A DNA stretch of 64,000 bases from Nymphaea colorata (Eukaryota; Streptophyta; Magnoliopsida; Nymphaeales; Nymphaeaceae), in NCBI RefSeq assembly GCF_008831285.2, contig NC_045146.1, forward strand, positions 24,631,703 to 24,695,702, given 5' to 3'. Shown here piece by piece: positions 6,801-54,650 of this stretch (position 1 is its first letter; each line of letters starts with the position of its first letter). Below the pieces are notes generated by a model. That model was not told the DNA's origin, did not search any database, and saw only the letters and a program-made list of their open reading frames with translations. Both the position numbers and the translations under genes were made by a program.

Positions 6801-8312
6801 CTAAGATTAGAAGCACCTGCATCAAGCACACTGCCATATGCAATAGGAAACTTGGATGAAAAAAAATTCTCGTTCTTTCTTTCGGCGTTAGAACTTTCAA
6901 TCGTCCTCAGCATATCAGTTCAATGGATCAACTCAACCAAAAGTACTACCACTAAGTCTATTCCCTAATCTACCTCCTTGCCACCTCATGCAACACTTCT
7001 GATTTGAGTATAGCCTTGAAGCTAGTGTGAAGTTTCAGGTTTCATTCTAAATTTGCATGTTTGGAATTAAGAGGGTAAAAGTAAAAGAAAATCACATAAC
7101 CAAATTCCAGGAAAGGATTCGGAGACCAAATATAAAAGATACTCTAGTTCTGTGCATAAAGTGCTTTACTGCCGAAGCTGGATAGAGGGGAATGCAGAAG
7201 AATGCATGCATGATTCGTAAAGGTCAATTGGGAGTTCAGTAGTCACATACTACAAAAGGAAAGGAAAGACGGGAGAAGAAAAGTTTTGCCTACTGTAGGC
7301 AACTATACCTGACTGAACTCCGAATCCTACGGCGCGTCATCGAAGCATCCTTAGCGAAGTACCATTGTGCAACAGTTCCACTGATCATATACACTTGAGC
7401 TTCAATCATCATCGCCATCGACCAAATCATTGTAATGATAGCCAGTGCATAATATGCCGGCACCCATCGGTCTTGCTTCCAGACGCACAAGTGCTCATCA
7501 TAGCTACCACTCGATCGAGGAACTATCCTGCCATTAAACCGTGCAAAAACCAGAAAAAATATTACCGGCGCGAAGAAGACGAGCAGAGCAAACATCAAGC
7601 TCGGCATGACGCCAAGCAACCCGAGATTCTCCTCCAAAGCATGCACCGAGATCCCCAAGATCTTCGAAGTGAGGTCAATGCTACGCCAATTCGCCAAAAT
7701 TATATACAAAATCACGCCCACCACTCCAAAAACGAACACTAGCACGAAGATGCGAAGCGCGAGTGGAAAGGCTTCCCTACAACTCTCGCTAAGGGTGCAA
7801 GTGATGAACCAGAAGACATTAACGAGAAGCGGGATGATCACCAAGAGTGGAAGCGACAAGAAGACCGCCTGCTTTGCGTAGTTCTTCAATAGCCGAAGAA
7901 GAACCAACATCAGTGGCGTGCTCAGCGCCAGAGTGATCGCCAGGGTCGACACCAGGTATTCCAGAAGCAGCTTGGGCACGACGTTGGCGGCATTCAACCA
8001 TGAACATGTTCCTCTTTCATCGACAATGGTCGAAGATTCGACACAGGAAGATGTACTGTTGTCGAAAGCGAAGTACCCCAACTTCCGGTAGTCGGGATTC
8101 CGGTGCGCAACGCAGAAAACGCCAAAGGCAAATGTGCAGGCGACCAAGATGAAGAAGATAAAAAGGAAAGGGAGATCGCGGACGCGCCTCGGCCCATGGT
8201 TGAAGCCGAAGGGTGGGCAATGGTATGAATCGATCTCACCCTCCGTAGTTGGTATTGATGGTGAAATCTTATGCAGAAGGGGCTGGGATTGCTCCTCCAA
8301 GCCACCAGCCAT
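3842..8312 (-). CDS. Choline transporter-like (CTL/PNS1 family) membrane protein
   Basis: Three exons: 8312-7309, 4615-4276 and 4102-3842, joined in phase at AG|GTATAG...TGCAG, ATG|GTGAGC...AATAG, giving 534 residues. That is the usual size of plant PNS1-like proteins. The family (Pfam Choline_transpo) comprises multi-pass membrane proteins; plant relatives such as Arabidopsis CHER1/CTL1 affect choline movement and vesicle traffic. The N-terminus is hydrophilic with a QPLL dileucine-like motif, then a first membrane segment near residues 48-68 (FLFIFFILVACTFAFG). Several further hydrophobic helices follow. The best family block spans the exon 1/2 join: SGTVAQWYF, then NAFGPSFGTVCFSGL, then LNKFTIHFVAITGEGYC and KMTYELLRRNLLS. 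Exon 3 ends with VLDNVINTIYVCFAIDRDKG. The ATG at 8310-8312 is chosen because it opens a MAGGLEEQSQPLL-type N-terminus. Intron 1 is 2.7 kb and holds no other gene I could see. The substrate is inferred from the family. Confidence 0.9.
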
Positions 8313-9688
8313 GGTTTAGACGATGGTTGGGAAGGGAAAGGCGAAGGGAGGGGACATAGAAGAAGAGTTGTCTGCATTGTGGGTCTGCTGGTTCGCGCCT
8401 GACAGATGGTGGGAGGATGACGAAGATGGGTGGGCTGATTTCACCATATGTAGCAACAGGGTGATGAAAACGGCGTGGACGCTGATATAACATTTTTGTA
8501 AAATTTTGGCCAAGAAGCTTCGAGCATTGATGATCACAATCACCATTGTAGCGATCTTGCGCTTACGGTTTGTACTTGGTTCGAATTTGAAGTCATCAAG
8601 CCCACAAAAACAGCTTCTTGTGTTGTCGATTTTGATTCAGACGGAAGTTTTCAAAACTAGAACCAGATCTAACTTGCATCAGAACAAACTTTTATCTGGT
8701 CTTTGTCTGTGATTGTAATTCACGTTCGGACAACTAGAACGTTATACTAAGTGATTAACTTCAAACTCAAATTACCAATCAAATATTTGATCGGATTCAT
8801 TAAGCATCGCTGGATAAGCAGGCTGAGGATCGGCAGAGTTCTCTAACTTGTGCCCATAAAAAAATAATTAACCAGAGGATGAAACTCCTAAGATTCCTCA
8901 ATTTGAAGGGTTTACATATTAAATCTATCATTGAATAAAGCTCTTTTAGGTATAAATCAAATTATAAATCAAATTCATCCACATCTTTATGCGGTAAGCC
9001 TTTTAGATCATCTTGCCCTGAAAAACAAGAAAAACGAGAGAAAATGACAGAAAAAAAGGACATGGGGCGTGTGCCATTAGGACTAGAAATCTAACCAGGT
9101 AACTTGTGGCTTGAATCTCCAACCATGCTTGCACGTCAACTTGTTCAACAAGTTAATGAACTGAACGTGACCGACCAGGGTAACAATAGTAATCAAAGCA
9201 TGAACAGGTTGTGCGCCTTTGAACCTAGGTCAATTGAGCCCATTAGTTAAATGAACTTTTAATGAGCTAGTCGACTGCCCAAATTATAGTTGATCCGCCT
9301 AAGTGATGTGCTGTTGATGCATTGGCCATTTGATTTCGTTATGTGCAAAATATGAACTGTCTTATGTGCAAAAATAGGAACTGCAAACAGTGACATGTGC
9401 AACACTCGAGTTGATGTGTAAACTAAGCTTGAATGATCCTCGTTCGTTCTGCTTTGTTCATCATTCATATTGTTTCCCATTTACATTTACTATCCTTCTC
9501 ATATGAACTGCATGATTCATATAGAAACGGCCAACTGGAAGATTGGCATCAATTTATTAATTATAAGGGCCAATACAAGAAACCAATAGAGATTGTTACA
9601 ACATCAAGAAAAAGGAAAGTGACTAGCTAATGCTCTTTTATTGAGAAATAGGCTCATTATATCGAAGGTGAAACCACAGGCATGTTCT
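8313..9688. other. Intergenic between CTL-like gene and STR-A
   Basis: The bases just above 8313 should be the promoter and 5' untranslated region of the minus-strand transporter gene. The part next to 9689 should hold the 3' untranslated region of STR-A. A SINE-like tail lies near 9374-9430. No protein-coding gene was recognised. Confidence 0.5.
9374..9430 (+). repeat. SINE-like repeat, tail portion (copy 1)
   Basis: The stretch AACTGCAAACAGTGACATGT followed by ACACTCGAGTTGA and GTGTAAACTA matches, in the same order and spacing, the tails of the repeats at 16385-16543 and 58635-58765. The head further left (about 9250-9370) is too eroded to be sure of A and B boxes. Confidence 0.55.
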
Positions 9689-11751
9689 TTACATTTTGGA
9701 TCCATCCTCTGGCTTTTTCAGCTCAAAGCCATTGCTCTCCCAAGCTTCAAACCCTCCTCCCATGTTCTTGACATTCTTGAAGTCCTGAAATCCAATTTCA
9801 TATTTTTCAATACTGCTTCAATAGAAAAAATGATATCAAGCAGCATCATAAATAATTTGAGAACTAATCAAATTGGACTAGTTTGGTGCTTAAAAACTAT
9901 AATCTGAACATAAATTACCAGAAAAAGAAAAGGAAAACACTTACCGCACTGAGGAGAGCAGTGCACGCCATTGATCCACGATTTCCAGTTTGGCAGCTCT
10001 AAAATATCGCCAGAAACAAGGATCAGGATATCAAAAAAACAACAGCAACGACAGCGGCAGGAATAATAACAGTAGCAAAAATTATAATAATGCTAATGTC
10101 AAGAAATTGATCAGGAAAAAATAAGGCAATTACCACAACAATATGGTCGTCTTTGCAGCAAATAGATGAAACCTCCTCCAAAAATTTAGGGTTCTTCTCT
10201 CGGCCTGGAAATCGAAAAGAGAAAGGAAGAGCAAATTAAGAAGAAGATCATAAATAAGAGCAGCCAATTTCTCAGTCGGAGCAGTTGAAGGAGAGTAGGT
10301 TTCACAATCAATACCTTGAGGTGTAAAGAACAAGAAAGGAACGTTGATGGAGTTTTCCAAGTGTCCATTGCTAAACTCTTCCTTGGTCCTGAAACATTTT
10401 TAATTTTCTCATGTATTAATTTCGTGACCTTATAATCCCACAAATCACTACCCTATTTTAACAAAACAAAAAGGAAAAAAATGTGATAAATAGGAAAAAA
10501 GGGAAAAGAAAATTCTGATAGTGGCTCAACTTTAAAGCAGTCGCCTGTATTCATGAAATATTCAATAAACCCATATGATTTTTTTTTTTTTCAACAACTT
10601 GTAAATGTTTTTTTTTTCATTGATTACTTTCTACCGGATCAATACTAATGAATCGAAAGTTGAACTCGTGGCCTTCTCAAGAGTCTTATTCAAAAGTCTT
10701 GGCCGACAGATTCTGGTTTTCTTCCCCAAGTCCAATTAATTACTTACATAACCAACTGTTACTTGAAATTTCACCAAGGTTTAAATAATAATTATAGAGG
10801 AGAGTAAAAGAATAATTTGTTTACCTGACATCAAGGAAGCGATGACCAGAAGCTATTAGATCCTTGGCTGCATGGACGTTTACCGTCACGATTGTTTCTT
10901 TGCTGCACAATATCAAAATAAACCTTGAGCCAATATGAACTATATACATATACATAATGGTGATACGATTACAGAATATAATTGACATTTATAAACATGT
11001 TAATGGAGAGACTATGACATAATTGGAAGCAAGAAAAGAAGGGGAGCGATCGAAATAATTAACCTGCACGGCGGGGCCGGCTGCGCAGAAGCCACCGGTT
11101 CCTTCACCGAGAGAGCGCTGAGCAACAGCGTTGCTTCCTTGCTGGAGAATGGAAATCGAAAGAAACTCATGAGGAGAGAGACTATATAAAAAATATATAT
11201 TTGGAAACAAATACAGTAGAATTTGAGAGACGAAGAAGATAGCGCAGAGGAGAGGAGAAGAAAGAACAACCTGACATCAACGGTGCTTTTTCCTGCAGGC
11301 TGTACTTCGTTTGCTGCATCATCACTGGAGCTGTTCCCGGAAACCTGTACGTCCTTTGGAGCGATGTCGCCGTTGACAGTTGCTTCATGGCTGCAGATGA
11401 TATCGTTAAAGAGACAGAAGAAGAAAGCAGCAGTTCGTAAGATGTACGTAGTCGAAGGAAAAGAAATGAAAAACGTGATGCGAATATTGAAGAAGAAAGT
11501 GAAGAGAAGAGAAATTCAGAACAACCTGCAGACATCAGGGGAACGGTGCTCGGCAGCAGCCTCTACGTCCTTTGCTGCTTTGACTTCGATGGTACTTTCT
11601 TTGGCTTCATCACTGCAGACAGAAGAAGAAGAAGAAGGAAGAGGAATAAGGCATGAGTTTCAGAAAAAAGAAAGTTAAGAAGGACAAGATGCGATTCGGT
11701 GATGGCCCGCTTAGGACGGAGGTGGAGACATTACCATTGAAGGGCCGCCAT
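9689..11751 (-). CDS. Single-domain rhodanese STR-A (thiosulfate sulfurtransferase, STR16/18-like)
   Basis: Nine exons joined in phase: 11751-11735, 11612-11526, 11390-11271, 11141-11064, 10902-10825, 10388-10315, 10204-10134, 9998-9945 and 9784-9689, giving 224 residues. The last five exons form a complete single-domain rhodanese: TVNVHAAKDLIASGHRFLDV, TKEEFSNGHLENSINVPF, REKNPKFLEEVS, the active-site loop SCQTGNRGS with the catalytic Cys, and NMGGGFEAWESNGF. Such enzymes move sulfane sulfur from donors such as thiosulfate to acceptors; physiological partners in plants are unclear. The usual plant protein is about 120-170 residues. The extra N-terminal 100 or so residues come from three Ala/Glu/Ser-rich exons that look like degenerate copies of the first rhodanese exon. 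The first exon is only 17 bp (MAALQ plus two bases). The rhodanese core is certain; use of all 5' exons in one transcript is inferred from phase and splice sites. Confidence 0.88.
11064..11612 (-). repeat. Array of duplicated, same-phase 5' exons in STR-A
   Basis: Three exons (11612-11526 of 87 bp, 11390-11271 of 120 bp, 11141-11064 of 78 bp) precede the true first rhodanese exon (10902-10825, 78 bp). All start in the same phase, most open with a KEA/HEA/DEA-like triplet, and carry an AAKD- or PKDV-like centre. Two end in a DV codon pair and AG before a GTTGTTCT donor. The 78-bp exon has exactly the length of the functional one. This indicates exon duplication followed by decay into low-complexity sequence. 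Confidence 0.72.
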
Positions 11752-13825
11752 AACGAACTTCGTTTATAGAGAGATCCCACAGGATCGAAGCTAAGATTCC
11801 CTCGGAGGCCAAAAAAAACAGGTGGTCGCGCTGATTGATTTTGCTTGCCGCTGGTTTTCTAGTTAGCGGGAGAAGGAGAGAACGAAGAGGAGACAGAGAA
11901 GGATGAATTGGTGAGCGGAAAAGTACCGCACACGTCCCGTATTTAAAGGAGACCGGCGGCTCCCTGTGATTGTGAGAAAAATAGTGTGCGCTTTTTAGAA
12001 ATAAGGATCAAGGAACTCATGTGTGAAGCCGCTTGGCACGGTCTTGGCCGTCCATCTCATTAATTGTTGGGGTCGGGGCTCCGTGTTCATAACGTGGATA
12101 AGGAAAAGGAGAAAAATTATTTCGAGGCAGATGTGAAGTGGCACTATACGATAGAAATGAGCTGTTGCTATTAAAAATGAATTCTTGTTATAAAAAAATG
12201 GAAAAAGTGGGCTTGAATTTGGAAGCCGTATTTTTTAGTAAAGCACCTCTTGATTCATGCAGCTGACTTTTTAGTGGTCAAAAGCTAATTTTTTAGACAG
12301 ATACACGTACTTAGACTAGAAGCCCTCCATAGTCGTGTAAAATTCACACGCAATTAGATGATAATTTTTCTGCGCGTTGAGATTTGGTAGATGGGAAATA
12401 AATTGCCTGCCAATCAGTTTCGAAGCTTCCAGACTTTCACTTTTTTTGTTGAACATATATTTTTTTTTAATGAGAAAACTTATAGCCAAGAACCCAACAA
12501 AGGGAGGAAACATGAAACATAATCAAATAGAAAAAAAAGAAAACCCAAACTCATGCACTGTATTGAAGAGCGAAATTGTTTCTCTGTCCCCTGATACCTT
12601 AAGAATAAGAAAATATATTAAACATTTTGGCTTTTGAAACCACCAGTTTTATCTTGCTTCTGCGAAATTCTGAACAAAAGCAAAATCTGTTTAAGCTTTT
12701 GATAGCAGAAGCCAAATATATGGCTCCTGAGCCTGACAAGAAGAGCCTGTGGCTCTCCTTAGATGCTCATCCAGTCAATCGTTCGCAAAGAGAAGAGACT
12801 TTAAGGAGTCGGCTTCGTGGGGTCACCCGTAGTTATCATCCATTAAGCAGTTAAAGCTCGATCTTCGTGGGCGTCACTCTCTGCGTAAGCGGAAACCATT
12901 TCTCAGAATTGAACGCGCGAAATCAAGGGCGTTTTGGTTTCGTTTCAGAGATTCAAGCTTGTTTTTTTTCCTTCAAAGAAGTTAATGAAAGAGCAACCGA
13001 ATGATGGAGAAATACAGAGCTGAGGATCACAATTTTAGTAGGTTTGAATTGAATTAGTTCTCCACCTAACTTTACAGTGCTTTTTCTTCGAGACCCATGT
13101 CTCGATTGTGAATGATCTTTTTAACTTTAAATGAGATGTACATCTTCAACTGTTGTTGGCTGTGCTGCATATTTGCAGTAAATCACAGGAATAATGGCAA
13201 TGACTCGTGAGTGAGGGGGCGAGGCGAGGGGCCATGGAGGGCTCCCATAATATTATCTATACAGCCAAGCTTGTCTTCCAAGAAAGGGAATAAGAGGCGG
13301 TGGGGAGAGAGAGGCGTCGACGCCATTAATATTGACAATTAATTGTCTTCACGATTCGTCAACTCAAACTGATTCAAGGCAGCTGCAATGTTTGTTTTAA
13401 AAAAAGGCAGAAAAGTGAGTCTCGGCCATTCCCCGTGAGCTGTCTCTCGTTTCCACTTGAACTGGAAGCCTTAGTAGCCCTAATAAATGAATGAGCTGTG
13501 CCTCATTGATTCCAGTTTAAATTTGGTAAATTATTTGTCTCGTAGAAGTTTGTATATTTCCGGAATAGTTGGTAAGTTCAGTCTATTATAATATTACCGC
13601 AATAGCTTGCATTGTAAGGATGATCTTCAATCATGGTATGTTTGTTTACTTGGGACTTCAAATTTAGGGTTGTTATTGCTCAAAGTGATTTTGAGATCTG
13701 AAATCCACTGTTTGTTTAAACAGTGAGTCTCAAAAGGTATGCATTTCCAATCAACTTCATATCTTGATATCTATCAACGGGTTTGGCCACCGGCAGTACT
13801 CAAAAGCTACGATGGATCATAGTCT

Positions 13826-17820: not shown

Positions 17821-19102
17821 TGGTCTTGACTAAACGAAAGCTGCATTAGATTATAAAGACTGCTCATTATGAAATTTTTATATTACGTTCTTCGGCAAAA
17901 GTTATTGTGCTATATTTCAAACTAGACTAAGACTACTTACTATGACATTTTTAAATGTTCTTCTGCAAGAGTTATTACAGTACGGGATGCCGTATACTAT
18001 TATTTTCGTCAAAAATGACACTTGGTTTATCAACTAATTCTGCAGTATACGCAGGTTCTAGTTTATAAAGATTTGAAACTAACATCCAAAAAATTTCACA
18101 AGTATTTTACAAAAGAAAATCATATTTTAAAGAAAATGCATAGCTCAGGTCACAAATAGACCACGACGAACATGTCTACCATAATGGAAAGTGAATCAAA
18201 TAATTTTTAAATTTGTACAAGTTTCAGCTGCCACATTTCAGTATACCCATGACCCTTGTTTATGTTGTAAATCTTAGTTGCCACAAAATTCCGACTTCTT
18301 TTGCTTTCCCTATTCCATTTCTTATCCTGGTAACCGTGCCCTCGACATACTTCATTGATGTATAATTAAATGGAGGACAATCTATCCTTGGGTTGCCAAT
18401 CCATAAAAGCAATTGCAAAAAGAAAGACAGGGCTAAGATAACCAGAAATAATGATAAGAAGGGAAGTAGAGGAGCAACCTAACATCGAGGAAACTGTGCC
18501 CAGTAGCAAGTAGATCCTTTGCTGCGTAGACATTAACAGTTACGACTGCTTCATTGCTGAAAAAAACAAAAGAACTCAGAAGAAATGAACTCCATATTTG
18601 TCATAGAAAAAAAAGAAGATGAAGATTTTAGTGAGCAACAAGAAGAAGAGAACAACCTGACATCACGGAATCGGCGTCCACAAACCAGCTTGCTGGACAT
18701 CCACGATAAAAAGAAGTGTTAGAAAGAGAAAAGAATCAAACATGCGTTTCGCGCTTGCGCATGTGTGCGGTTTACTCGCTCTGTAAGTTCACCTTCCGGA
18801 GAAGAACTGCTTTGATTTAAATTCTTCTATCAGATAATGGAATGTTAAGAGCCATCAAACTGTGGAATAGAGATGAAGCTGAGATTTTGAACAAGGGAAG
18901 GAAATTAAACCATGCCTTATATCAGCCGATCCCGTTTCGGCGCTGCCGTTGACCTTGGCTGACGTTGCTTCTTTGCTGCACAACACAAGCACCATTTAGA
19001 AGAAGAAGAAGACGACGACGAATCAGAACAGGTGGGAGGTGAGAGGAAGGATGATAGAAAAGGAGAGGAGAGAGGAAGGTCTCACTGCTGCTCGGCGGCC
19101 AT
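16732..19102 (-). CDS. Single-domain rhodanese STR-B (thiosulfate sulfurtransferase, STR16/18-like)
   Basis: Eight exons: 19102-19086, 18975-18916, 18692-18657, 18556-18479, 17634-17561, 17461-17391, 17290-17237 and 16827-16732, giving 161 residues if all are used. The domain reads TVNVYAAKDLLATGHSFLDV, TKEEFSKGHVKNAINVPY, REKNPTFLEEVSGVCSKDG, the active-site loop SCNGGGRSSS and SLGGGFRAWVDSGF. Exon lengths 78, 74, 71, 54 and 96 bp are identical to STR-A, as is the 17-bp first exon (MAAEQ plus two bases). Two short exons before the domain (60 and 36 bp) again look like decayed copies of the 78-bp exon. The 60-bp exon ends at AAG|GCATGG, so it needs a rare GC donor; skipping it keeps the frame. 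The active loop keeps Cys but has Asn-Gly-Gly in place of the usual Gln-Ser-Gly. The core assignment is firm; the 5' exons are provisional. Confidence 0.86.
17766..17811 (+). repeat. (GA)n microsatellite
   Basis: An uninterrupted GA run of about 46 bases in an STR-B intron, just upstream (in gene sense) of the TKEEF exon. Confidence 0.95.
18657..18975 (-). repeat. Decayed duplicate exons in STR-B
   Basis: The 60-bp unit (18975-18916, starting KEATSAKVNGS) and the 36-bp unit (18692-18657, ending RRFRDV) share start phase, end phase and the AG|GTTGTTC-type donor context with the STR-A cassette exons. The first has a GC instead of a GT donor. Confidence 0.6.
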
Positions 19103-20980: not shown

Positions 20981-22072
20981 CTATTGCTGTACTTGCAGGT
21001 CAAGACCATTGTCTACCCAAGAAGCAAACCCTTTTCCTACGTTCTTCAGATTCTTGAAGCCCTGCAACAAAAGGGGAACAAAGACCAACCAACATTGTCA
21101 CTTTGAAAGCTCGATAACAGCAAATGGTTAAAACCACTGTCTTTGAAGAGATTGGAATCGCAGCAATTAACAGTACGTGGGTGCAAAATGAAGAAGCTGG
21201 CGGTCACAATAGCAAAAACATATAATTTGCATGATGAACTTACCGACTTGAGAAGATCATTGCACGCACGCGGTGATCTAACGCCATTTCGGCAGATCTT
21301 CAACACACAAAGATTTTCTTGTCAGATCTCCAAAATTGAAACTTTGTTCAAAAGGATACGATGTTGGAACATCCCAACATCCTACGGTAAGTTCTGTAAT
21401 AACAATGGTATAATCGGGAATAACTTGAAAAGGACAAAATTCTCAAAAGAGATGAAAGAAATTACCACAACAATAGGATCGTTCTTACTGAAAATCGCAG
21501 AAACCTCCTCTGTAAATCGAGGGTTCTTCTGTTTACCTGCAAAACAGGAAAACATAAGATAATATAAGAAAACCGGGAAGACTTTAACGGTTGGGCATCT
21601 CTGCAATTTTCCTCCTAGCAAAAAAGAAAAGGTTGATGATAGCTAGTACCTTGAGGGGTGAAGAACAGATAAGGAACATTTATGGCATCCTTCACGTGCC
21701 CCTTGGCAAACTCTTCCTTGGTCCTGGAACAGAGATCACCCACTCGAAATTGGGTCATTCCATATCAATCTCCTAACATAAATGTCAAAATTCTCAACAA
21801 AAGAGAGAGAGAGGGAGAGTAGAATTAAGGATGACGATGGAAGTTTAAAGAGCAGACCTAACATCAAGTAAGCGGTAACCAGAAGCAAGAAGATCCCTTG
21901 CAGCATGGACGTTGACAGTGACGATGGCATCTTTCCCGCCGGAGAGGAAGGGAACTGTCAGGGAGAGGGAGAAGAGGAAGGCGACCACCAGAGAAACCGT
22001 CAGAAAGAAAGAGAAGAAGAAGAAGGCAGCCCAGAAAATCCTCATGGACATAGCATTGTGGGAAATAGCCAT
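20981..22072 (-). CDS. Single-domain rhodanese STR-C with N-terminal membrane anchor
   Basis: Five exons: 22072-21858, 21723-21650, 21536-21466, 21297-21244 and 21061-20981, joined in phase, giving 164 residues. The rhodanese part reads TVNVHAARDLLASGYRLLDV, TKEEFAKGHVKDAINVPY, KQKNPRFTEEVSAIFSKND, the active-site loop ICRNGVRSP with the catalytic Cys and NVGKGFASWVDNGL. Internal exon lengths (74, 71, 54 bp) match STR-A and STR-B. Unlike those, the first exon is 215 bp and fuses the domain directly to a strongly hydrophobic stretch (about residues 11-42, IFWAAFFFFSFFLTVSLVVA then further hydrophobics). This should act as a signal anchor or membrane tether, so the protein likely sits in another compartment than STR-A and STR-B. 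The ATG at 22070-22072 is the first in frame. Sulfurtransferase activity is inferred from the family and the retained Cys. Confidence 0.88.
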
Positions 22073-27500: not shown

Positions 27501-29492
27501 AGAAACCTTTAACATGAAAAGATGCAAGAGTTGATATCATTTATCTTCCTGAAATTCCTGAAACCTGCTCATGCCTGGAGTAAGAGCTACCATTTTCTAT
27601 CAATATTGGCCACAAAAGTTCACTTATTCATGGGTCATTCTTCAAAGTTCAAACTTCCAAAAAGGGTTTGTGAGTGAAATAATTATTCCCATGGTTACAT
27701 ACCTCATGAGTGAATCTTGAAAGTTCAACAAGAAAACAGCAAACAAACATAGTGTACTACCATATCGCATAGACAGATATAACCATGTACATTGCTGCTG
27801 AGCCACTTGTCCAACTGATGACAGAACAGTGAATTGTGGTCAAAATGTTTTCACACATGTTCACATAACTTTTGACTTTTTCTCTTTTATTACAATGTTT
27901 TCTAATGTTCTTGAACACAAAGAATATCTTACAGTAGTCACATGCATGCATGGCTTCTTGCTAATCATTATAGACATAGACAAAGATGGGTGAGGCAAAT
28001 ATAGTGTATAAATAAAATAGTGAACAAATGGTTAAAAAAAATATATGCAATAAAACAAAAAAGAATAAAACCTGCACAGAAGTTGTGCAATGCAAACATT
28101 ATTTTCAGTGGAAAACATAAGCAATTTGCTTACCAGCATGTTGTCCATCAATATCAACATCCAAATATACTTGATGAGTAACCGCCGGAACCTCCTCAAT
28201 CTCCACTTTCTCCTCCTAAAATCAGACGTGCAATAGATGGGTAAGATTTTTGCTACGAATCCAATATATGAAACCATCCACATTTTGAAAGACAATATCT
28301 TACGGAATGGTTCAAGTCAACAGGCAACAGATAAAATCAGAAGTAACAATTTCATCTTAACACATTAAGGTTGGCATGACAAATAACAATAAGGGTAAAA
28401 AATGTCTTCTAAATTTTAGTGCTACCTGTGGACAAATAATCAAATACGAAATCACAGGTAATGTGTTGGTAAGGTCGACAAGAATCCCACTCATCAATAG
28501 AAATAAGTTGCCCAAATCTAGCTGGAGATTATTTCGAAGATAAAAAAAGTACAAAGCACAACGCATAATGCAAATATGATTATAGATGCAATTAGTCACT
28601 TGTAGATATAAGACTACCAGTTACATGTGAATCAACACAAGAAACCTACCCAGATCATAACTCCGCGCTTCCAATTAGCAGCACTATGTAACTATTTTAG
28701 CGATGTTTCATTAGGCATATCCCATTCAGAACTCATTAGATCCAAGTACCAGCAATGTGTGAAATGGCAGGATTGTGGTCTCCGTAGATTTTCTTCCAAT
28801 ATTAAGATAAAGAGTCAATTCCAAAGGAAATAGGAAAATAAAAGAGGAAAAAAGGAATAGCCGGAAATCTGCACAACCCAGGTAATCACGCGGTCGAGAT
28901 CAAAACCAAGAATAAGTAGCATCCAATGACAAAGATCCACCCTAGAGGACCTCGGAACTCGGAAGGTAGCAAAATGTAAAGATCTGATCCAAGTTTCCAG
29001 CCCCAGCACCCTCGGGCAGAAAGCTTCCAACCTTACGTAATGGATTTCTTCAATTAATTAGCTTGCCTTCTCCACATTCTCCAATCCGCAGAACCATTTT
29101 CAAAGATGCATAGAAAAGGGCAATGAAACATAAGCAGATTCACTATATGGAGCAATAGCCACAAATTTGTCACTCCTAAACTTCACTTTCAAAGAACCCA
29201 GAGTACCCAACTGAATTAGCAGAAAATGTAGACCACCCACATGAGAAAGCACACACAAAATCCACCAACTGAAAAAAAAAAAAACTGAGAAGACCAACAA
29301 CCCAATTTCATCCATAAGGAAACGCCTTGAAAATCAAAGATGAAAACCAATGCAAAATCTATTGACAACGCAAGAAAATGTTCCAGAGATGCAAGGGGAA
29401 AGGAGAGGGGCTACCTCCTGAGGGAAGGACCACACAAGAACCACAACAACGACTACGACCGACAGCAGAATTAGCAGCCCTTTTCTCCTCAT
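24560..29492 (-). CDS. CYP21-1: Peptidyl-prolyl cis-trans isomerase, CYP21-1-like cyclophilin
   Basis: Seven exons: 29492-29415, 28215-28134, 27243-27196, 26273-26250, 26037-25855, 24900-24825 and 24719-24560, in phase, giving 216 residues, close to Arabidopsis CYP21-1. The protein starts MRRKG and a hydrophobic stretch ([14 protein letters not shown]) that should be an ER signal or anchor. A short acidic linker and the cyclophilin domain follow: [52 protein letters not shown] (catalytic Arg and Phe), [11 protein letters not shown] and [12 protein letters not shown] (the cyclosporin-contact Trp kept). It ends [20 protein letters not shown]. Cyclophilins catalyse proline cis-trans isomerisation in protein folding. 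Exon 4 is a 24-bp microexon coding NFRALCT plus split codons. Part of intron 1 and the first 19 bp of exon 2 recur at 36916-37917. Confidence 0.93.
25199..25246 (+). repeat. (TG)n/(CG)n compound microsatellite
   Basis: GT repeats, then GC repeats, then GT again within an intron of the cyclophilin gene. A run of this kind can form Z-DNA. Confidence 0.92.
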
Positions 29493-31441
29493 TGTAGTAT
29501 CAAATTGGCGCGATCCACTTTCTCATCACCACTTGTTTCAATTACAAGAGGACCGTTCTCCTTTCATGGAGGGCTCACCTTCTCCGGATTCACCCTATAC
29601 TTCCTTCGACAGCAAAGACGATGCAGCAAGATCTTCGACCAGTCTGGCCGACCGAGACTGTGGAAATGGCTGCGTCGTCAATTTCCGACTCTATGTAAAG
29701 GATAATCTGTAATTTCGGATAGTCTGGCCGACCGAGACTGTGGAAATGGCTGCGTCGTCAATTTCCGACTCTATGTAAAGGATAATCTGTAATTTCCGAG
29801 TCTTTCAAGAGTAAGACTTTCACCACAGATACACCGGCGTGTTTAAAGACTCAGTCAACTGTATTTGCTATGCTGGAATTTGCGATCTGCAAAAGGGCCT
29901 GATGCGGTTCGAGGATCATGTTCACCGTGGTCCGTGCCTGCTTTTTAACCAGAATGTCTGATTCTGGATCATGATCCAATCTAGATCCAGTATCGATTGT
30001 ACAAATCAAGTATATCTGGACGTGGGCATCGCTGAATTCAACAAAATCAGATCTTTACAGTTCTTTTTCATAAAAATTGGCCACTATATCCAGACATGAT
30101 TAGTTATTTAGATGTATCAAATATGCCTTTTTTATGTGTACTCACATTTGGATGTTATTCAAGTTCACTAGGATTCTTACAAACTCTTGAGACTAACTCA
30201 TTCCTAGTTCTTTTCGTATAATCTCTCCTTGTATATATATTATTTCCCCAAAAGGCATCCCTTTATAGAATTTGGTAGGTCCATGCCCCGTAGTCCAGTG
30301 CCACTGGCATTTCTAAATGATGTAGTTCTAGGGCTTAATAATTTCAGATCTGCGAACCCTGAAATTCCTCAGACGTTTAGAGCCTACATTTAAAATAAAA
30401 GCACCCAAGATCGATTTGAGATCAGACATGATACAAGGCATGATACTAATTGAAATGAGCTTTAGATCCCAAGACCAAGAGCTTTCGCACGTGGACTATG
30501 CAAGCCATTCGGGTTTGATCCAAACCCTGGCAAAGGCCCGACATATAACACTGATCTTGAAAGACACCCAATTTCATAAGCCACTGATCTCGAAGCCGGC
30601 AAGTCTTAGAACAGAACAGCCTAACGATTCTCATGGGAAATCTATGGGATGTAAATGATTCAGACATAAATAAGCTAGTACGTACAAGGGAATTGAGTTT
30701 GGTTCTGTTAGAAAATGGCATTTCTCAAGCACTAATGCTGGTAGCAGTCCGGTCCGTAATTTTTTTTTTTTTAACCATCTTCTCCATGCAACATAAGTCG
30801 TTTTTTTTTAACTAAGTCAAAGGTAAAGGAGCCTCATGGGAGCAACCATAAAACCTCTTGCTTGCATCTCTCCACCTCCAGAAGATAAACGTATCTTTAG
30901 GTTGCCTAAGGAGTGAAACATCATACGGATTCGACCTACAACCGGCTGCCTACTAGTCATGGCCTGCACCCACTGCACCAGCTCTTTTGGGTCTTCCACA
31001 AATGTAGTTTTTTAAAGGGCTAAGTTTCTAAGGTCTTCAAAATAAGTAGTTTCTTAGAGGGCGCCTGGAATTCTGTCCGACCACATTGTGCTTAGGTTGT
31101 TTTCTGTCGTTTTGTCTTGAAGGACGTCCATTCTCTTTTTTACTCAGGAGCACCCAAAGGAAACAAGAAGAAGAAGAACAAGCTAATCTGCTTCCATTCT
31201 AGAAACATATTTTTTACACTCTATCTCTTAGCAAAATTATGGAAGACAATGAACATTGGAAACAAAAAAAAAGAGATCACGCTTCCAAAAATTTTCCATC
31301 AACCTGTTGAATGGTGATGAACCCTCGTAGCAAAATTTGCCGTCTCTAACAAAATTATGGAAGACAATGAATAACACGAAAAAGATCATGCTTCTTGAAA
31401 TTTTCCCTCGACTTGTAGCGTGGTATTAAAACATAGGCAGA
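29493..31441. other. Spacer between CYP21-1 and MFS-A
   Basis: Contains the CYP21-1 promoter with the 80-bp tandem repeat and, next to 31442, the MFS-A 3' untranslated region. No gene recognised. Sequence from about 30286 onward recurs downstream of MFS-B in copy 2. Confidence 0.5.
29641..29800. repeat. 80-bp tandem duplication upstream of CYP21-1
   Basis: Two adjacent 80-bp units, both starting AGTCTGGCCGACCGAGACTG, at 29641-29720 and 29721-29800; only the last few bases differ. They lie about 150-310 bp upstream of the CYP21-1 start codon, in promoter or 5' untranslated sequence. Confidence 0.95.
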
Positions 31442-34400
31442 TCACAACACGTGCCGGTTATAATTCCGTTGCCACCGTTTCCGCTTAAGAAGTTGAATGC
31501 AAACTGCTGCAGAAAACAACCCAAATGAAGATAATGCCATGATGGTTGAATTCTCAAGCTTCCGATTATATCCACCCTGAAAATTTTTAGGGACGGACGA
31601 AAAGATTCAGGATTAAAAGGCGAAAAAAATATAAAAAATAAGCCAAAGAAAACGTTGCGCACCTGGATCAAAACATACAAGATTCCAGCATTTGCAGGTA
31701 CCAGAGACAGGCTCATCATGCCAGCACGCAATTCATTCGGAACATACCTGCAGTTACGAAGTGATATGAAATCACTTGCATAGATGACAGAATCAAAACA
31801 TCAGATTAATAACTTTTTAACAAATTTACATGCTCCGCAGCCTTGCAAGTGAAGGTACAATCAGGCCGAAAGATCCATGGATAATGCAGAAGAGAACCAC
31901 TAGGACTGCAATTTCCTGCAATAAATGTTTGTGGAATCTACTCAAAAAATGTCAAACATAAAGGAGATTTATTTTGCATTCTCCAAATATGAAAATGCTG
32001 CAAAAATGTGAACGTGCATATGATTTGTCTTAATTGTTCTTCGAGTAATACTCTGAAACCCAAAGTTCAAAAGATTCAAATTTTTTGAACTTCACGTATT
32101 TGAATCTTTTCACATTGCAAAATTGGATCCTTACAGTTGCCAATATGGAAATGAGACGCCAACTATTTCTAAGAGATTTAAGTGCATATGGTCCAAGACC
32201 ACATAGGTTTCTACTGTTCTACCTCCCCAAAATATGCATTGGATACAGGGAATTATATGTTTCTCATGTTGAGCTAATCCAACGGATACATCATAGGCAT
32301 GGATAAATAAATACTAAACATGGAGGTTCATGTTCAGTGTGTTGTTCTAAAAAATTTTACCTGATAGTCATAAGCTATAACAGAAAATGAAAAGCCAACC
32401 ACCATGAAAGCAATAGCCAAGCAGTCTTCTATTTCAACGGAAAAAACACCATTGAACATCCATGGAACCATCGTGCTACCAAACATTCTTGCAGCAAGCA
32501 GACATGGGTATATTAATCCTAGAGCCACTTCTCTCCCATCTGCCTGTACGAAATGAAAGAATGAGTGGCCAATTTATTTGGAAAATAAAAGCAGCTTATG
32601 TGTTGCTATGACAAATACATAAGTTCAGTTTAATATTTAAATGACGAGTTAGGATGGAACTTGTCCAATAAGAATTAGCATCTATAGCACCATCAACCTG
32701 GACCAGTGCATGGCTCAATTATATTAGTGCGAGGATCTCGTATCTGTTGTTGCAGCAAAGGACGTTCAATCAGCCTTCATGAATCACGATCCACAAAGAC
32801 ATTTTATTGCTTCCCTTTCTAGTTTTTCTTCCTTGTTTTTCTTCCGTTTTTTTCTTGGCTTCAGTGAACAGAAGTCAGGAACAGTGTCACAAATATTAGG
32901 GAAATTTTCGAAAATCTCATGATATTTAAGAGAAAATCAAATAAAACAAAAAAATTGGAAAAATTCGCTCGCAATATGTATGAGAAAATCAAATAAAATG
33001 AAAACATCGGGAAGAAGTCACAAGATTTTGAAAATCTTGCCAAAACAATAATCTCATGATTTTTTTCCAAGATTTTAATAATTTTTAATTTTTAAAAATT
33101 TTATGGGTTTTAATTATTTTTATGATTTTCTTAATTTTTAAAAAATTGTCAAGATTTTCCCAAGATTCTCCCAAGAAAAACAACTTTGCTGAAAATTACT
33201 CCAAAAAAACCTCACTGATATTTCTCCGAGAACGGTATTTGTGACAATGGTCAAGACTAAAAGAGATTCAGAACCTTAGGATCTAGATCTCAAGTGCAAA
33301 CAAGTTTCTTGTTCATTTGGTACCAACTAAATTGCTTCTACGACTGTAAGTACAAGCATGCTTTTCTGTGGCATTACATTTTAAGGTTATTAGCACTTAA
33401 AGCATAGAAAAGCCAATGGAAAAAATAATACCACTACAGTTGGTGCCCAGAGAAGCCAAAAGATTGCCATGGAGAAGTGAACAGCTGAATGAGCACAGGC
33501 CAATAGCAATACCCTTCTATCTGGCAGGAAATTACAGAACTTGCTTTATAAGTGAACAACAAAGAAACAAAGAAAGAACATAAAAATGCACAAACAGAGA
33601 CATACATGCACGAATAAAAAGAAAGAAGAAGCATGCAAGAGCATACAACACAGGCATGTATTCATGCATGATCAAGACATGCATGTCCAAGAAGCAACAG
33701 AAGAACACACATATGTATACATAAATGGAATGTGACACCTTGTTAAAAATGATTCTTTTTTCATAATACATGGAATAATTAATTATTACATAGACAATCT
33801 CTAGTTATGGGCCTAGCTGGGAATATCCATTAAGACCAAAAGTTGGACTGTATTTTGAAGATAGTGGAGACTGGAAAGTTAAATCCCAAAATTGGATATC
33901 AACAACGTAGTAGTAATTTAACATCAGTGTCATTACTCTACTACTACTCCAAACGAAAGCTTCCTTGAATATCGACATACTAAAACTTCCATGGATACAA
34001 AGATTTTCAGTTACCATTAAGAAAAAGCGAAGACAATGAAAGCTTGTAATTCTTGAAAGTAGATGTTGGTACATGTTCATCCCACCCGCTATTGATATAA
34101 AGGATGCAAACAATCGCCAGAGCAGAACCGAAAACAGTAGGGGAGGCTAGCCCACTCTCAGAACTCCATGAAATAAAGGAATTTGCCATAACCTGGCTTC
34201 CAACTAGTGAAGCTGATTCCATAAAAGTCATCAACCAAAAAGTGCCACTCAACAATTCCTTCCTGAAACCCAACTGAAAAAGAAACAACCAAGTGCACGA
34301 AACATTAACAATATAATAAACCAAAGCCTTTCAATACTAAGTTAGGAAAAGCAGTCACATTCACTGCAAACCTTTTCATGTTCAGAGACCATCCATGTCT

Positions 34401-36695
34401 CGAAGCTGCATGAATATATTGATAATGACAATGACAAGAAGATGCATGTCAACCAAACACTTGGATATTTGTTCATGCCCCTTATTATGCCACCCGCAAG
34501 TTGCAGAAGGCAAGCAAACATGCATGCTTTCTTTTGCCCTCTGCAGTGTAGGCGAATCAATCAGAACACTGACATGACACAAGGTTAGTTCTCAAAAAGA
34601 AACAAACTTAAGCCTGAGAATCATCAGAATGAAGAAACTTATCACCACAAACATTCTGAAAATAATTTGGGGAGTATACAAGATGTATTTATGATCAAAA
34701 AGAAGGAAAATGAGGTCAGTTAAAGGCCTCAAAGGCATTATTTTCCAACAAAAAATTCATGCTTAGCATGTTTTGCTTTAACAAGCCAAGAAACTGATGG
34801 TCATCCAAATTGTGATAATCAACATCACAATGACTCTCTACTACACAAATATATGTTTATGCTTATATAATAGGTTCACATAAGCTACCACTTATAAGTC
34901 TTCTTTCGCTAAGAAATTCTTCAAACATCATTTGGTGCAGTTACATATGATATTTGGCCTATATTATTAAACCAATCCTCATGTTTTCTCAACATGATGG
35001 AGCAGCACAAATGTGCTGCATTACCACATTCGTTTGATTACTCATGAAATACTCTTGTGTATCACTAAACCAAAGGAATGGAAGCACATCACATTTTTTC
35101 TGTTCATTTGGTTCCTTTGATAATGCTTACCTGCTTTGGATTCTCCTAGTGACAACGAAATGAAATCACAAAGGCATATAATGGTTGCTAACAAGATCCT
35201 TTTAGGCCCATAATTCAATCATCCAACACAATAAAGGGAATAAAAAGGGTAAAGAGGAAGCCCATAATGGTTGCTTTCAATTGCTAATTTTGTTTTGTCC
35301 TGTTTTTTTGGTCAATACACATCTTTCTTCACTTGCTATAAGCAAGTCTTTTCTAGGACTGAACACCAAGCCAACCAGTTTATGAAATATGCCTCGCAAT
35401 GAGTTTTTAATTCTTCAGGAAGGGTGTGTCTGACAACGCTATGAAACAGATTCAGTTGTAAATGGACCATGCCAAACAGAGGGTTAACAATGAGGATTGC
35501 TCCAGCTCCAGGTGATTTTTGTAAATCAGAATAAAAATCTTGCCTATACTTGAAAAAATATTGGCCATATAAAGCACAGTATTAAGAGCAACTCCCACAG
35601 CTGCTATTTCCTCCCCCTCTTAATCAGGGTAACATCAAGCAGCCATTGGATTTGGTAAATGCTATCTGAAGCAAAAAGCAAGGAGCTTACAAAATGTTGT
35701 GGAAAGCGTTATTTTGCAAAAGGGTGTGAGCATCCTTCACAACCAGAAGCGTGCTTCGCATTTAAGGGAAGCATGCTTCCTTTGGAAGGGGCGGGACCTT
35801 CTTTCGTGAAACTAACCCTTTTTTTCCAAAATTTTTAGTTCCATCAGTGCCCAAACTTAATTTTACAAAAAAAAATTGGAAATTGAAACATGAGCATTTC
35901 ATTTTTGTTAGTGTGTGCGTATATATATATATAAATATACATATATATATATATATAATCCGCTCGTGGTTCAATTCCTGTGTTTAACAGACGAAGCGAG
36001 TAGCGGAATCAGTAGAAAGGAAATTCAGAAACATGTGCAGGAAGTGGGGGAAAGTACTAGTAGTTCTAGCAGCACCTTAGTACCAGTCAACCACTAAGAA
36101 TGTCATATAAAACTCCTGACAAACTACAGAATTCAAGAAGGTAAAGATCTGAACTACAGCTACAGCGAACTAACAATTACAAATGCAGAAACGAAGACGA
36201 ATTGCCACTAAAGACACATGAGACAATAGCAAAGTAAAAACTCACAGAACATCTGAAAGAGGCCCCAAGAACGTTCCAAGAAGAAGAGAAGCAACACCAC
36301 CATGTGAGAGAACCAGAGCCATTTGCTCCCTGTTCAGACCCTGAGCAACATACTCGATCTCTCCGAAGACATTTTGAATCCCTTCGACCACTAAGCATCA
36401 TCCCAAAGGAATTGTAAATCACTAAAAAGAGGCGATACCCATCAAAGATGGAGGCCGGCAATCCGTAAAAGAGGCACAAGAAAAGCACAGTACCTGACAC
36501 CAAGCAGTACGCAACCAAGAAGCTCCATTGGAACCGAGGAAACTGAGATGGGTAGGTCGAGGAGCCAGCCTTTCTAGATGAGATCTTTGAGAAGAAGAAT
36601 GGGAAGAGGAGGATCGACGCTGAAGACGCAGAAAAGAGGAGGAAGTAGAGCCAAGGACTGGGCTCCCAGACGTCAGGCGGGATGACTACCCCCAT
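31442..36695 (-). CDS. MFSD5-like molybdate-anion transporter MFS-A (major facilitator superfamily)
   Basis: Nine exons: 36695-36494, 36390-36246, 34540-34372, 34273-34015, 33520-33432, 32543-32361, 31915-31830, 31747-31663 and 31576-31442, in phase, giving 450 residues, the usual length for this family. Related Chlamydomonas MoT2 and human MFSD5 transport molybdate; plant substrates are less certain. The start MGVVIPPDVWEP matches the family. The loop between helices 2 and 3 has GPLSDVLGQKK, a good MFS motif A. Other family blocks are NKYPSVW, FETWMVSEHEK, FWLMTFMESASLVGSQVMAN, FSMAIFWLLWAPTVV, LGLIYPCLLAARMFGST, IEDCLAIAFMVVGF, PSLARLRSMYVPNELRAGMM and NSTIMALSSFGLFSAA. It acts as a multi-pass membrane carrier. 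All junctions are GT-AG and the frame is fully open, so it looks functional. Introns hold a hAT-like MITE (32882-33249) and no other gene. Confidence 0.93.
32882..33249. mobile_element. hAT-like MITE in MFS-A intron 5
   Basis: The left end CAGTGTCACAAATA and the right end, read inverted, CATTGTCACAAATA form terminal inverted repeats around about 368 bp of AT-rich, non-coding sequence. Flanks GTCAGGAA and GTCAAGAC agree at 6 of 8 positions. The homologous insertion in MFS-B has identical 8-bp flanks, and the pseudogene copy has the empty site. Confidence 0.85.
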
Positions 36696-36915
36696 TTCCT
36701 ACTGGTTGGTTGAGATGGTATCTGCTAGGTGATGATGATGATGATGATGGGTCGGCACGCCATGACCGGAAGGCTCTCCAGGAAGCCGAATATGTAACGA
36801 GAAGTCGGAAGCTTGCCGTTTGTTTTGCAGATTCTTCCAACAGGTTAAATCGGTTTCAGGTTCTCAATTGGACCGGCTCACCGTCGTCTTGAAGCTTGGC
36901 TATCACGAAGGCCGG

Positions 36916-45735: not shown

Positions 45736-45910
45736 TTCATTCTTCCATTTGCCTTGTTTTTGGGAACTAAATACGTCTTAGATAGTTCCCTCAAATTGTT
45801 TTTAGACGATAAGCCTCTTCATTCTGTTGATCCTCAAGCTCAAGCCTGTGAGTTTCTTTCTTTCTGAAAACTGACGTAGCAATATTCTGATGGTTTCACC
45901 TACATTGCGG

Positions 45911-48178
45911 AGGGGAAAAGAAAGCGTCGATTGTTGCGTGCCTTCTGCAATTTGTGAGTGGCACAGTAAGGGGAACGAACAAATATCCAAGTGTTTGGAT
46001 GTCATGCATCTTCTTGTCATTGTCATCATCAATATATTCATGCAACATTGGAACATGGATGTTGGCTGAACATGAAAAGGTTTGCCTTCAACGTGACGGG
46101 GTTTTCCTAAATTCAGTGTTGGAATGCTTTGGTTTATAATCTTGTTAATATTTGTGCACATGTTAGTTGCTTTTTCAGTTGGGTTTCAGTGAAGGCATTG
46201 TTGAGAAATCTGCTTCACTAGTTGGAAGCCAGTTTATGGCAGATTCCTTGATTTCTTGGAGTTACTGTGGGTGGTCTGGTCTCCTCTGCAGTTTCTGCTT
46301 CTGCTCTGGCAATTGTTTGCGTCCTTTATGTCAACAGGGATGTGATGAACATGCACCAGCATCTACATTCAGGAATTACAAGCTTTCATTTTCTTCACTT
46401 TTTTAAAGTGGTAACTGAATATCTTTGTTTCCATGAGAGCTTCAATATATGATATTCAAGGCAACTCTCTTTTGGAAGGACAGAACAATGACATTCAATA
46501 TATGATACACAATTATGGGATTTAACTCCCAGTATCTTCAAAGTTCTCTTTATGTTGCAGTCCAACTTTTGGTCTTAAAGGATATTCCTGGCTAGGCTTA
46601 TTATTACAGGATATCTATTTAATACTTAATTATTCCATGTATAATGGGAAAAATAACTTTGCAAGCACTTGCTTTTGTAATATGACTTTAAAACGTAATG
46701 CACGCGTGAAATCATACCTGTACTTGTATTCTCATCGAAGCAATTTAGTGGTACCAAATGAACAAGAAACTTGGCTATGGTTCTCAATATCTCTTTCAGT
46801 CCTGACATATCTATCCACTGGAGCGGGGAAAAAAGGAGGAAGGAAAATAAGAAACGAAAGGCAAAAGAAGAAGGGGAACAAGAAAAGAAATGTCAAAGAT
46901 AAAATGTCTTCGTGGATCATTATTCGTGAAGGCTTATTAAATATCATTTGCTGCAACGATGCAACCACATGCAAGATCTTCACGTTAATAGGATCGAGCC
47001 ATACACATGTCCAGGTTGATGGTGCTATAGATGCTAATTCTTATGGGAAAAAAAATCCCCTCTTAACTCGTCACTGGAACAGTAAACTGAATTTATGCAT
47101 TTCTTGTTTTGCAAAGAACACATGAATTGCATATATTTTTCAAATAAATGTTTGCTCATCCCTTCATTTTCGTGCAGCAGATGGGACAGAAGTAACTACA
47201 GGATTGACATGCCCATGTCTGCTTGGCGGAACACGGCGGTTTGAAGGATGTTGAGCGGTGTGCTGCCCACTGAAATGGACGGCCGCCAACTGCTTGACCA
47301 GCACCTTCATGGTGGTTGGCTTTTCTTTTCCTGTTATAGCTTACAACTATCAGGTAAGTTTTTTACAACACACTAAACATGAACATCCATATTCATTATC
47401 TATTCGTGCCTGCCCATTGTGTAGCCATTTGATTAGACCAAATAAAAGGAACGCACAGTCCGCTGTATCAAATTCGTCTTTCGGGGGAAATGGAAACCTC
47501 TCTGGTATTGTGTGAATCCAAGTTTGCAATGTGAAAAGATTCAAACATGTGAAGTTCAAAACTTTCCGGCTTCTTGAACCTAACGTTGAGAGAACTTTTT
47601 GCGTAGACTTGAAGCATACATTAAGACGAACCATATGCATCCCTATTCACATTCACATTTGCAGCATTTTCATATCTGCAGAATGCAAAATAAATCTACT
47701 TCACGCTTGGCACTTTTTAAGAAGATTCCACAATCATTTATTGCAGGAAATTGGAGTCCTAGTGGTCCTCTTGTGCATTATTTACAGGTCTTCTGCCTGC
47801 TTGTACCTTTACTTGCAAGGCTGCGGAGCATGTAAATCTGTTACACAGTTGCTGATCTGATGTTTTGTTTCTGTCATCTATGCAAGTAAATTTCGTATCA
47901 TGTTGTCATCGCATTTATGTTCCGAATGAATTACGTAATAATATGATGGGCCTGTCTCTGGTACCTGAAAATGCTGGGACCTTGTACGCTTCCTTCGGCT
48001 TTCTGTAGTTTTTTGCCTTTAAATCCAGACTTTCTTCATCCGTCAGTAAAAATTTTCAGGGTGGATGTAACCGGAAGCTTGGGAATTCAACTATTATGGC
48101 ATTATCTTAGTTCGGTTGTCTTCTGCAGCAGTTTGCATTCAACCTCTTGAGCGGATATGGTCGCAACGGAATTATAAC
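45911..48178 (+). pseudogene. MFSD5-like pseudogene, inverted 3' part (exons 3, 4, 6-9)
   Basis: On the plus strand, opposite to its relatives, exon-like pieces of the MFSD5 gene lie in order: exon 3 (45911-46079, same 169-bp length, NKYPSVWMSCIFLSLSSSIY), exon 4 (46179-46410, 27 bp short and internally frameshifted), a badly eroded exon 6 ending FMVVGFSFPVIAYNYQ near 47355, exon 7 near 47748-47832, exon 8 near 47915-47998 and exon 9 from about 48060. Exons 2 and 5 are missing, the exon 3 acceptor is damaged (TTGCGG for CTGCAG), and exon 9 has an in-frame TAG at 48108-48110. Introns are also homologous to those of MFS-A and MFS-B. Divergence is far greater than between MFS-A and MFS-B. Confidence 0.92.
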
Positions 48179-48579
48179 CAGCAAGGTGAAGGAAAATTTC
48201 TGGAAGCACGATCTCCTTTTTTGGTATGTTCATCGTCTGCCATAATTTTGCTAAAGGAAAAGAGAGAGTATTTTGCAAAGGATAGGCTTCATTCAACAGG
48301 CTGATGGAAAAAATCTCAGGAAGGATGATGTCCTTTTTTTGCAATGTTCATTGTATTCCATAATTTTGCTAAAGAGAGTGAAATATTTTGCTAGAGGGAA
48401 GCAGATAATGTTTTGATTTTATTTGGTATTCTTGAAGAAGAAAATCAGCATAATATAATATGATCGGACAACGTTAGGGATCGTCCGAAACCAGTAGCAA
48501 ATCGCTAAATAGGCGATACGCGTCAAATATGGAGGATAAAACGACGGCAATCCGCCGGAGGCAGAAAGACACAAAGCAC

Positions 48580-54631: not shown

Positions 54632-54650
54632 CTCTCTCTCTCTCTCTCTG
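54632..54650 (-). promoter_or_regulatory. GA-repeat 5' leader of ACBP3-like gene
   Basis: A CT run on the plus strand (GA on the sense strand) of about 19 bases ends right at the start codon. GA runs in plant 5' leaders can bind BBR/BPC factors; a role here is only inferred. Confidence 0.5.

Follow-up and report, generated by a model that had tools for sequence, protein, structure and literature searches.

The window analysed here is a stretch of 64 kb that appears, judged by its genes and the make-up of its introns, to be plant DNA. It holds three tandem rhodanese genes, STR-A, STR-B and STR-C, all on the minus strand (Table 1). Their models were built from splice dinucleotides, reading frame and a comparison of the three genes, using genomic sequence alone. 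The translations match the Pfam Rhodanese family (PF00581) at 70, 71.5 and 65 bits, respectively, against a cut-off of 22.2. The active-site loop of rhodaneses starts with a cysteine and follows the pattern CxxGxR; it is found in all three translations, as CQTGNR in STR-A, CNGGGR in STR-B and CRNGVR in STR-C, and the predicted domain of each gene looks intact. Past the exon that opens the domain, STR-A and STR-B both continue with exons of 74, 71, 54 and 96 nt, and STR-C is a near-match with 74, 71, 54 and 81 nt. Ahead of that exon, STR-B has the same layout as STR-A: a 17-nt start exon, then extra exons (60 and 36 nt in STR-B), then the 78-nt exon that opens the domain.

Table 1. Genes and predicted exons of the STR cluster, with positions in the window; a slash in a donor sequence marks the end of the exon
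Feature	Position	Strand	Size	Description
STR-A	11751-9689	-		Rhodanese gene
STR-A exon 1 (A1)	11735..11751	-	17 nt	ATG; five codons and two bases; donor ATG/GTAATG
STR-A exon 2 (A2)	11526..11612	-	87 nt	Proposed duplicated unit DEAKESTIEVKAAKDVEAAAEHRSPDVC; donor CAG/GTTGTT
STR-A exon 3 (A3)	11271..11390	-	120 nt	Proposed full unit plus partial second unit, peptide HEATVNGDIAPKDVQVSGNSSSDDAANEVQPAGKSTVDV; donor CAG/GTTGTT
STR-A exon 4 (A4)	11064..11141	-	78 nt	Proposed duplicated unit, peptide KEATLLLSALSVKEPVASAQPAPPC; donor CAG/GTTAAT
STR-A exon 5 (A5)	10825..10902	-	78 nt	Intact copy, first exon of the rhodanese domain, peptide KETIVTVNVHAAKDLIASGHRFLDV
STR-A exons 6-9 (A6-A9)	10388-10315, 10204-10134, 9998-9945, 9784-9689	-		Remaining rhodanese domain, including the CQTGNRG loop
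STR-B	19102-16732	-		Rhodanese gene
STR-B exon 1	19086..19102	-	17 nt	ATGGCCGCCGAGCAGCA; size and place as STR-A exon 1
STR-B exon 2 (B2)	18916..18975	-	60 nt	Proposed shortened unit KEATSAKVNGSAETGSADI, opening with the shared CAGCAAAGAAGCAAC; least certain exon
STR-B exon 3 (B3)	18657..18692	-	36 nt	Proposed shortened unit KLVCGRRFRDV
STR-B exon 4 (B4)	18479..18556	-	78 nt	Opens the STR-B rhodanese domain
STR-B exons 5-8	17634-17561, 17461-17391, 17290-17237, 16827-16732	-		Remaining rhodanese domain
STR-C	20981..22072	-		Tandem paralogue without duplicated exons

An initial annotation of this DNA had drawn attention to STR-A, where three exons were said to precede the domain's first exon in matching phase. 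Our models agree, with A2 to A5 all lying between phase-2 introns. The further details hold as well: one extra exon is as long as the domain exon (A4 and A5 are both 78 nt) and two of them, A2 and A3, finish in AG ahead of GTTGTTCT. Skipping was predicted to be frame-neutral, and all 16 of the 16 include/skip combinations of A2-A5 do leave an open frame. Their products range from 103 to 224 residues, and the subsets without A5 lose the start of the domain. The eight subsets of STR-B exons 2-4 are likewise all open. That annotation overlooked the matching array of STR-B (18975-18657), as it did the composite structure of A3 and the weak donors of the first domain exon in STR-B and STR-C.

Similarity between the extra exons and the exon that opens the domain

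By local alignment, with 2000 shuffles for each pair, every extra exon (A2-A4, B2 and B3) was compared with the three domain exons (A5, B4 and C1). At the protein level, 12 of the 15 pairs reached p <= 0.05 and the three misses all involved B2. DNA alignment reached the same level in 12 of 15 pairs, with A4-B4, A4-C1 and B2-A5 (p 0.058) as the misses; B2 scored p 0.02 with B4 and 0.0025 with C1. Among the extra exons themselves, three of the ten pairs were at p <= 0.05 in protein and three in DNA. End-to-end alignment with 10,000 shuffles gave p values of 0.0002 for A2, 0.0001 for A3, 0.0003 for A4, 0.0001 for B3 and 0.007 for B2. The best-scoring domain exon was A5 for A2, A4, B2 and B3, and B4 for A3. 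When A4 and A5 were laid side by side in register and without gaps, 38 of the 75 inner bases were the same, a figure that none of 20,000 codon shuffles reached; over the full length, 41 of 78 bases are identical.

Summed protein scores were also set against a background of equal-length open six-frame stretches taken outside the STR genes at every third codon. Background stretches scored as high in 0 of 9243 cases for A2, 0 of 5464 for A3, 100 of 10717 for A4 and 9 of 21682 for B3. The protein score of B2 against the domain exons was equalled by 7933 of 14421 such stretches and is not above chance. Values of dN/dS were 0.33/0.97 for A2 against A5 and 0.71/1.16 for A4 against A5; we do not lean on these ratios below 1 because they rest on about 25 codons.

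An HMM made from the three domain exons only, run over the whole 64 kb, found no unit significant (best A2, E 2.4; a reversed-window control gave E 0.37). The case therefore rests on the tests made at the proposed exons, and a blind scan would miss the units. At those predicted exons the similarity is secure. A six-frame HMM of the domain exons plus the units (without B2) was derived from a manual alignment that omitted one A2 alanine and cut the head of A3 at 25 residues. Among its best 25 matches in the 64 kb there was no further convincing unit; the best other match (E 0.73, plus strand, 32728) was level with B3 at E 0.72. Since this second HMM contains the units, its scores for them are no evidence, and only the HMM of the three domain exons is independent.

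The similarity does not convincingly extend into the introns. In 21 intron pairs, with 300 shuffles each, three values fell below 0.05 and none was convincing, so that the intron bodies are not convincingly homologous. Among 28 pairs of 38-nt flanks past the donors, three were below 0.06: B4-C1 (0.005), A3-A5 (0.006) and A2-A3 (0.017). Aligning the four STR-A exons together with their flanking intron bases, as the initial annotation had proposed, upholds similarity above chance in the exons but not convincingly in the introns.

The proposal of an array of homologous, phase-matched exons between the start exon and the domain is supported, but A3, as predicted here, is about one and a half units and not one. 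A word of 23 nt around GCAGCAAAGGACGTA has one copy in A2 (11556-11578) and two in A3 (11340-11362 and 11295-11317), with 70-83% identity; the two A3 copies are 45 nt apart. The tail of A3 closes in a unit-like way, with GTTGATGTCAG. When this tail is aligned with A2, the shared AGCACCGT lies in different reading frames (the frames were judged by eye), and it is flanked by gaps that restore the net frame by the end of the exon. This one short stretch hints that the open frame was under selection and the residues themselves hardly so.

Similar neighbouring exons, matching phase and length differences in multiples of three are the marks by which we judged tandem exon duplication. Similarity to a neighbour was found for A2, A3, A4 and B3; for B2 it was found only through the first bases, two of the three DNA comparisons and the end-to-end test. 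Lengths of 87, 120, 78, 60 and 36 nt, against 78 nt for the domain exon, differ by multiples of three, and all these exons are in phase 2. Based on these comparisons, we read the extra exons of STR-A and STR-B as being, for the most part, old tandem copies of the domain's first exon.

Open frames, splice sites and predicted tails

The length of each extra exon is a multiple of three, and none of the five carries an in-frame stop. Acceptors are AG in five of five and donors GT in four of five. In Markov shuffles at the exons' own composition, the probability of finding no stop was 0.07 for A2-A4 and 0.029 for all five; at intron composition, it fell to 0.0038 and 0.00095, respectively. The GC content of the extra exons is 53-67%, compared with 30-48% in the adjoining introns. 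The peptides of A2-A5 contain no methionine, which makes exon 1 the natural place for the extended form of STR-A to start. There is no ATG in the 209 nt upstream of the exon-1 ATG in STR-A, and there are three other ATGs in the 158 nt upstream of STR-B exon 1. Ahead of the STR-A ATG there is a TTTAAAT element, at a distance of about 196 nt, and a TATAAA at about 17 nt.

These features suggest that the extra exons are probably translated. Against this stand the open frame of A2-A4, which is weak by itself (p 0.07), the upstream ATGs of STR-B, the stop-free intron 3 of STR-A, and B2, which can barely be made out as a copy and depends on a GC donor. The B2 donor, AAG/GCATGG (18910-18916), would need a GC-AG intron, a rare donor type. 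Donors were scored with a plant matrix. On this scale the non-consensus donor CAG/GTTGTT, common to A2, A3 and B3, scores 5.8, below all nine later domain donors of the three genes (6.5-9.3), and the A4 donor is fair at 7.8. The donors of the domain's first exon are weaker still, at 2.8 in STR-B and 4.1 in STR-C. As these first domain exons are needed, a weak donor is by itself no sign of skipping; it is a family trait.

A 152-aa ORF on the plus strand (11220-11678), antisense to exon 3, most of exon 2 and nearby introns, was considered as a gene and rejected, as its two Pfam matches were both below the cut-off. The plus strand is T-poor there (22%), which makes stops rare and explains the ORF.

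With all exons joined, STR-A would encode 224 aa. Its best solved relative is 1tq1 (E 5.4e-28), listed as a senescence-associated family protein, which we take to be Arabidopsis STR16. The alignment covers residues 107-216 only. Like STR-A, 1tq1 and STR18 have a single rhodanese domain, but 1tq1 has 18 residues ahead of the aligned part and so offers no counterpart of the 100-residue extension. The description of this extension as rich in Ala, Glu and Ser was accurate: these residues make up 39% of STR-A residues 1-100 versus 23% of its domain. The predicted STR-A tail, of about 95 residues, is acidic (pI 4.4, net -9); that of STR-B, of about 32 residues, is near neutral (pI 8.0, net +1). Chloroplast transit peptides are unlike such an acidic N-terminus. 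The charge-hydropathy rule puts the STR-A tail just on the folded side (0.466 vs 0.446), and we therefore do not call it disordered. Arabidopsis STR18 is described as a cytosolic protein that is present only in dicots and receives sulfur from ABA3 (PMC8931425). We infer that STR-A is a cytosolic sulfurtransferase carrying an added, loosely constrained tail.

Origin and use of the extra exons

Two words are shared between the arrays of STR-A and STR-B, both of them picked after the exons had been seen. An exact 17-mer across the donor, TGATGTCAG/GTTGTTCT, is common to A3 and B3. These are its only two sites in the 64 kb at <=3 mismatches, where 0.28 are expected, and 3 of 100 shuffles reach two. 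The exon-start pattern CAGCAANGAAGCAAC is exact at A4 and B2, with one mismatch at A3 and two at A5 and B4; at <=3 mismatches the window has 22 matches versus 7.1 expected. The domains of STR-A and STR-B have a dS of about 1.07 and a dN of 0.23 over 117 codons, with 74 of 117 residues identical. The simplest account would be that at least one copy of the unit is older than the split between the two genes; gene conversion of the A3/B3 junction may be an alternative source of the shared 17-mer. In STR-C, neither the gene model nor the HMM scan of the window revealed duplicated exons. Its first exon (21858-22072) runs from a strongly hydrophobic N-terminus into the domain with no intron between. 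This N-terminus suggests that STR-C is secreted or anchored in a membrane, next to two soluble paralogues.

We consider it probable that the extra exons arose by old tandem exon duplication, and that the copies decayed but stayed in frame and now encode an N-terminal tail. An STR16/18-like gene would have gained tandem copies of the exon that opens the domain (78 nt, between phase-2 introns), placed after the 17-nt start exon and ahead of the domain. Because inserting a symmetric exon leaves the frame unbroken, such copies would be tolerated. The intact domain exon (A5 in STR-A, B4 in STR-B) would keep building the fold, and the copies would have shed their domain-like sequence through substitution and net in-frame length change while the open frame and splice sites stayed. 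Translated, they would form a tail under low constraint. We predict that the extra exons are spliced in, mostly constitutively, and that the tail would tether a cytosolic sulfurtransferase or act as its spacer, and would not be part of its catalytic machinery. The parts of this account borne out directly at the predicted exons are homology (weakly for B2), phase, open frame, splice-site dinucleotides and the matching layout of STR-B.

The same anatomy could serve cassette splicing, the view taken in the initial annotation; regulated inclusion or skipping of A2-A4 would then yield as many as eight STR-A proteins that differ in tail length. Every subset of A2-A4 is open, and A2, A3 and B3 have one and the same non-consensus donor, with 17 nt identical around it in A3 and B3. 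However, frame-neutrality comes with any tandem copy of a symmetric exon, the donors of the required domain exons are weaker than this one in both STR-B and STR-C, and the A4 donor is not weak; we regard regulated cassettes as possible but unlikely. An extension of this idea, which we rate as improbable, is that STR-A and STR-B have a conserved, splicing-controlled length dial, where differing numbers of units would give tails of differing length and charge that decide the partners of the enzyme. Its basis is the weak CAG/GTTGTT donor in three of the five extra exons and the A3/B3 junction, which is identical despite the extensive turnover at synonymous sites in the domain. If true, a fragment of a catalytic domain would have been copied, freed from folding and turned into a regulatory tail. 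The great divergence of the units (dN 0.71 and dS 1.16 for A4-A5) could instead mean that the copies are decaying relics, pseudo-exons out of use, with the working transcript splicing exon 1 to the domain exon. Joining exon 1 to exon 5 does give a complete protein, of 129 aa, and B2 is barely recognisable and has its GC donor. Yet lengths divisible by three, the open frame, every AG acceptor and all but one of the five GT donors were kept while the A/B domains reached a dS of about 1, and we find it rather doubtful that the copies are out of use.

Other exon limits for STR-A seem very unlikely. Transcripts could begin at 10988 within intron 4, with MSIIFCNRITIMYMYIVHIGSRFILILC leading into the domain exon, and the protein would then have a hydrophobic N-terminus resembling that of STR-C. 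The frame is open from an ATG at 10988 into exon 5, and in STR-C a single exon encodes both the hydrophobic N-terminus and the beginning of the domain. STR-B, however, has no in-frame ATG between the last upstream stop and its domain exon. Alternatively, intron 3 might be retained. It is 129 nt long, a multiple of three, and stop-free, so that A3, intron 3 and A4 form a single open frame of 167 codons on the minus strand (11012-11515); retention would leave the protein unbroken, and A3 and A4 can be read as one exon. The composition of intron 3 (36% GC, 49% T) is nevertheless intron-like, similar to the neighbouring introns and unlike the exons, and A4 is preceded by an AG and opens with the exon-start pattern CAGCAANGAAGCAAC. 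Least credible to us is a set of mutually exclusive exons, with one of A2-A5 selected so as to alter the start of the rhodanese fold. Homologous tandem exons of a single phase are the usual anatomy of such arrays, and each single choice here leaves an open frame. Even so, A2 ends in RSPDVC and A4 in APPC where the domain exon has FLDV, and in our judgement neither seems fit to replace A5; the ten inverted repeats in 10800-11760 (10-16 nt, 75-100%) include no paired selector sequences.

Related cases and the surrounding DNA

Tandem exon duplication has precedents among plant genes. In grass CENP-C, exons 9-12 arose by tandem duplication of short exons, with repeated gain and loss and with diverged copies of 25-38 residues, and in rice exon 9c the first 14 codons are repeated internally (PMC549713). 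STR-A resembles this case in having short tandem exons in a plant gene, and the partial internal duplication of rice exon 9c resembles that of STR-A exon 3. Unlike the STR units, the CENP-C exons come in pairs, lie mid-protein and belong to a centromere component; they have the support of cDNAs and, in wheat and barley, of positive selection (PMC549713). The proposed STR units are unpaired, sit at the N-terminal side of an enzyme, derive from a piece of its catalytic domain and come from gene models only. Five duplicated post-LRR exons have been described in the Prunus TNL gene Ma (PMC4851768). Several duplicated exons were added there beside conserved domains, as in STR-A and STR-B, but in Ma each of the five corresponds to a domain and they lie in the C-terminal region (PMC4851768). 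The STR units are in contrast fragments of about 11-39 residues in which the domain pattern has been lost.

We also considered the claim that no such case had been described in plant STR proteins. It is consistent with the open-licence PMC literature, where none was found, partly among the top matches listed; for Arabidopsis STR18, the word "exon" is absent from the main text of the report (PMC8931425). Tandem exon duplication in plants has already been described, and we regard the STR arrays as a real new instance of this known process. Provided that the exons are expressed, STR-A and STR-B would be a clear example of an enzyme turning part of its own domain, duplicated as a symmetric exon, into an extra tail while the protein stays whole. 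Two paralogues with the array and one without it lie side by side, which allows comparison. For gene prediction, the start codon in a 17-nt exon is easily overlooked, and the domain exons of STR-A and STR-B contain no in-frame start codon.

Elsewhere, the window contains large duplications within 28198-48940. Here, 37917-42746 matches 30286-34869 at 82%, and 36917-37915 matches 28198-29202 at 93%; inverted copies of these duplicated stretches lie at 45746-48406, with 68-76% identity. An ORF in the duplicated region (36180-36698, 173 aa) is hydrophobic and has no Pfam match. Downstream of STR-A, a minus-strand ORF of 341 aa (7293-8315) has a choline-transporter-like domain (PF04515, 81 bits). 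Another minus-strand ORF, of 366 aa (53633-54730), encodes a long Glu-rich stretch followed by the start of an acyl-CoA-binding domain (PF00887, 35.7 bits).
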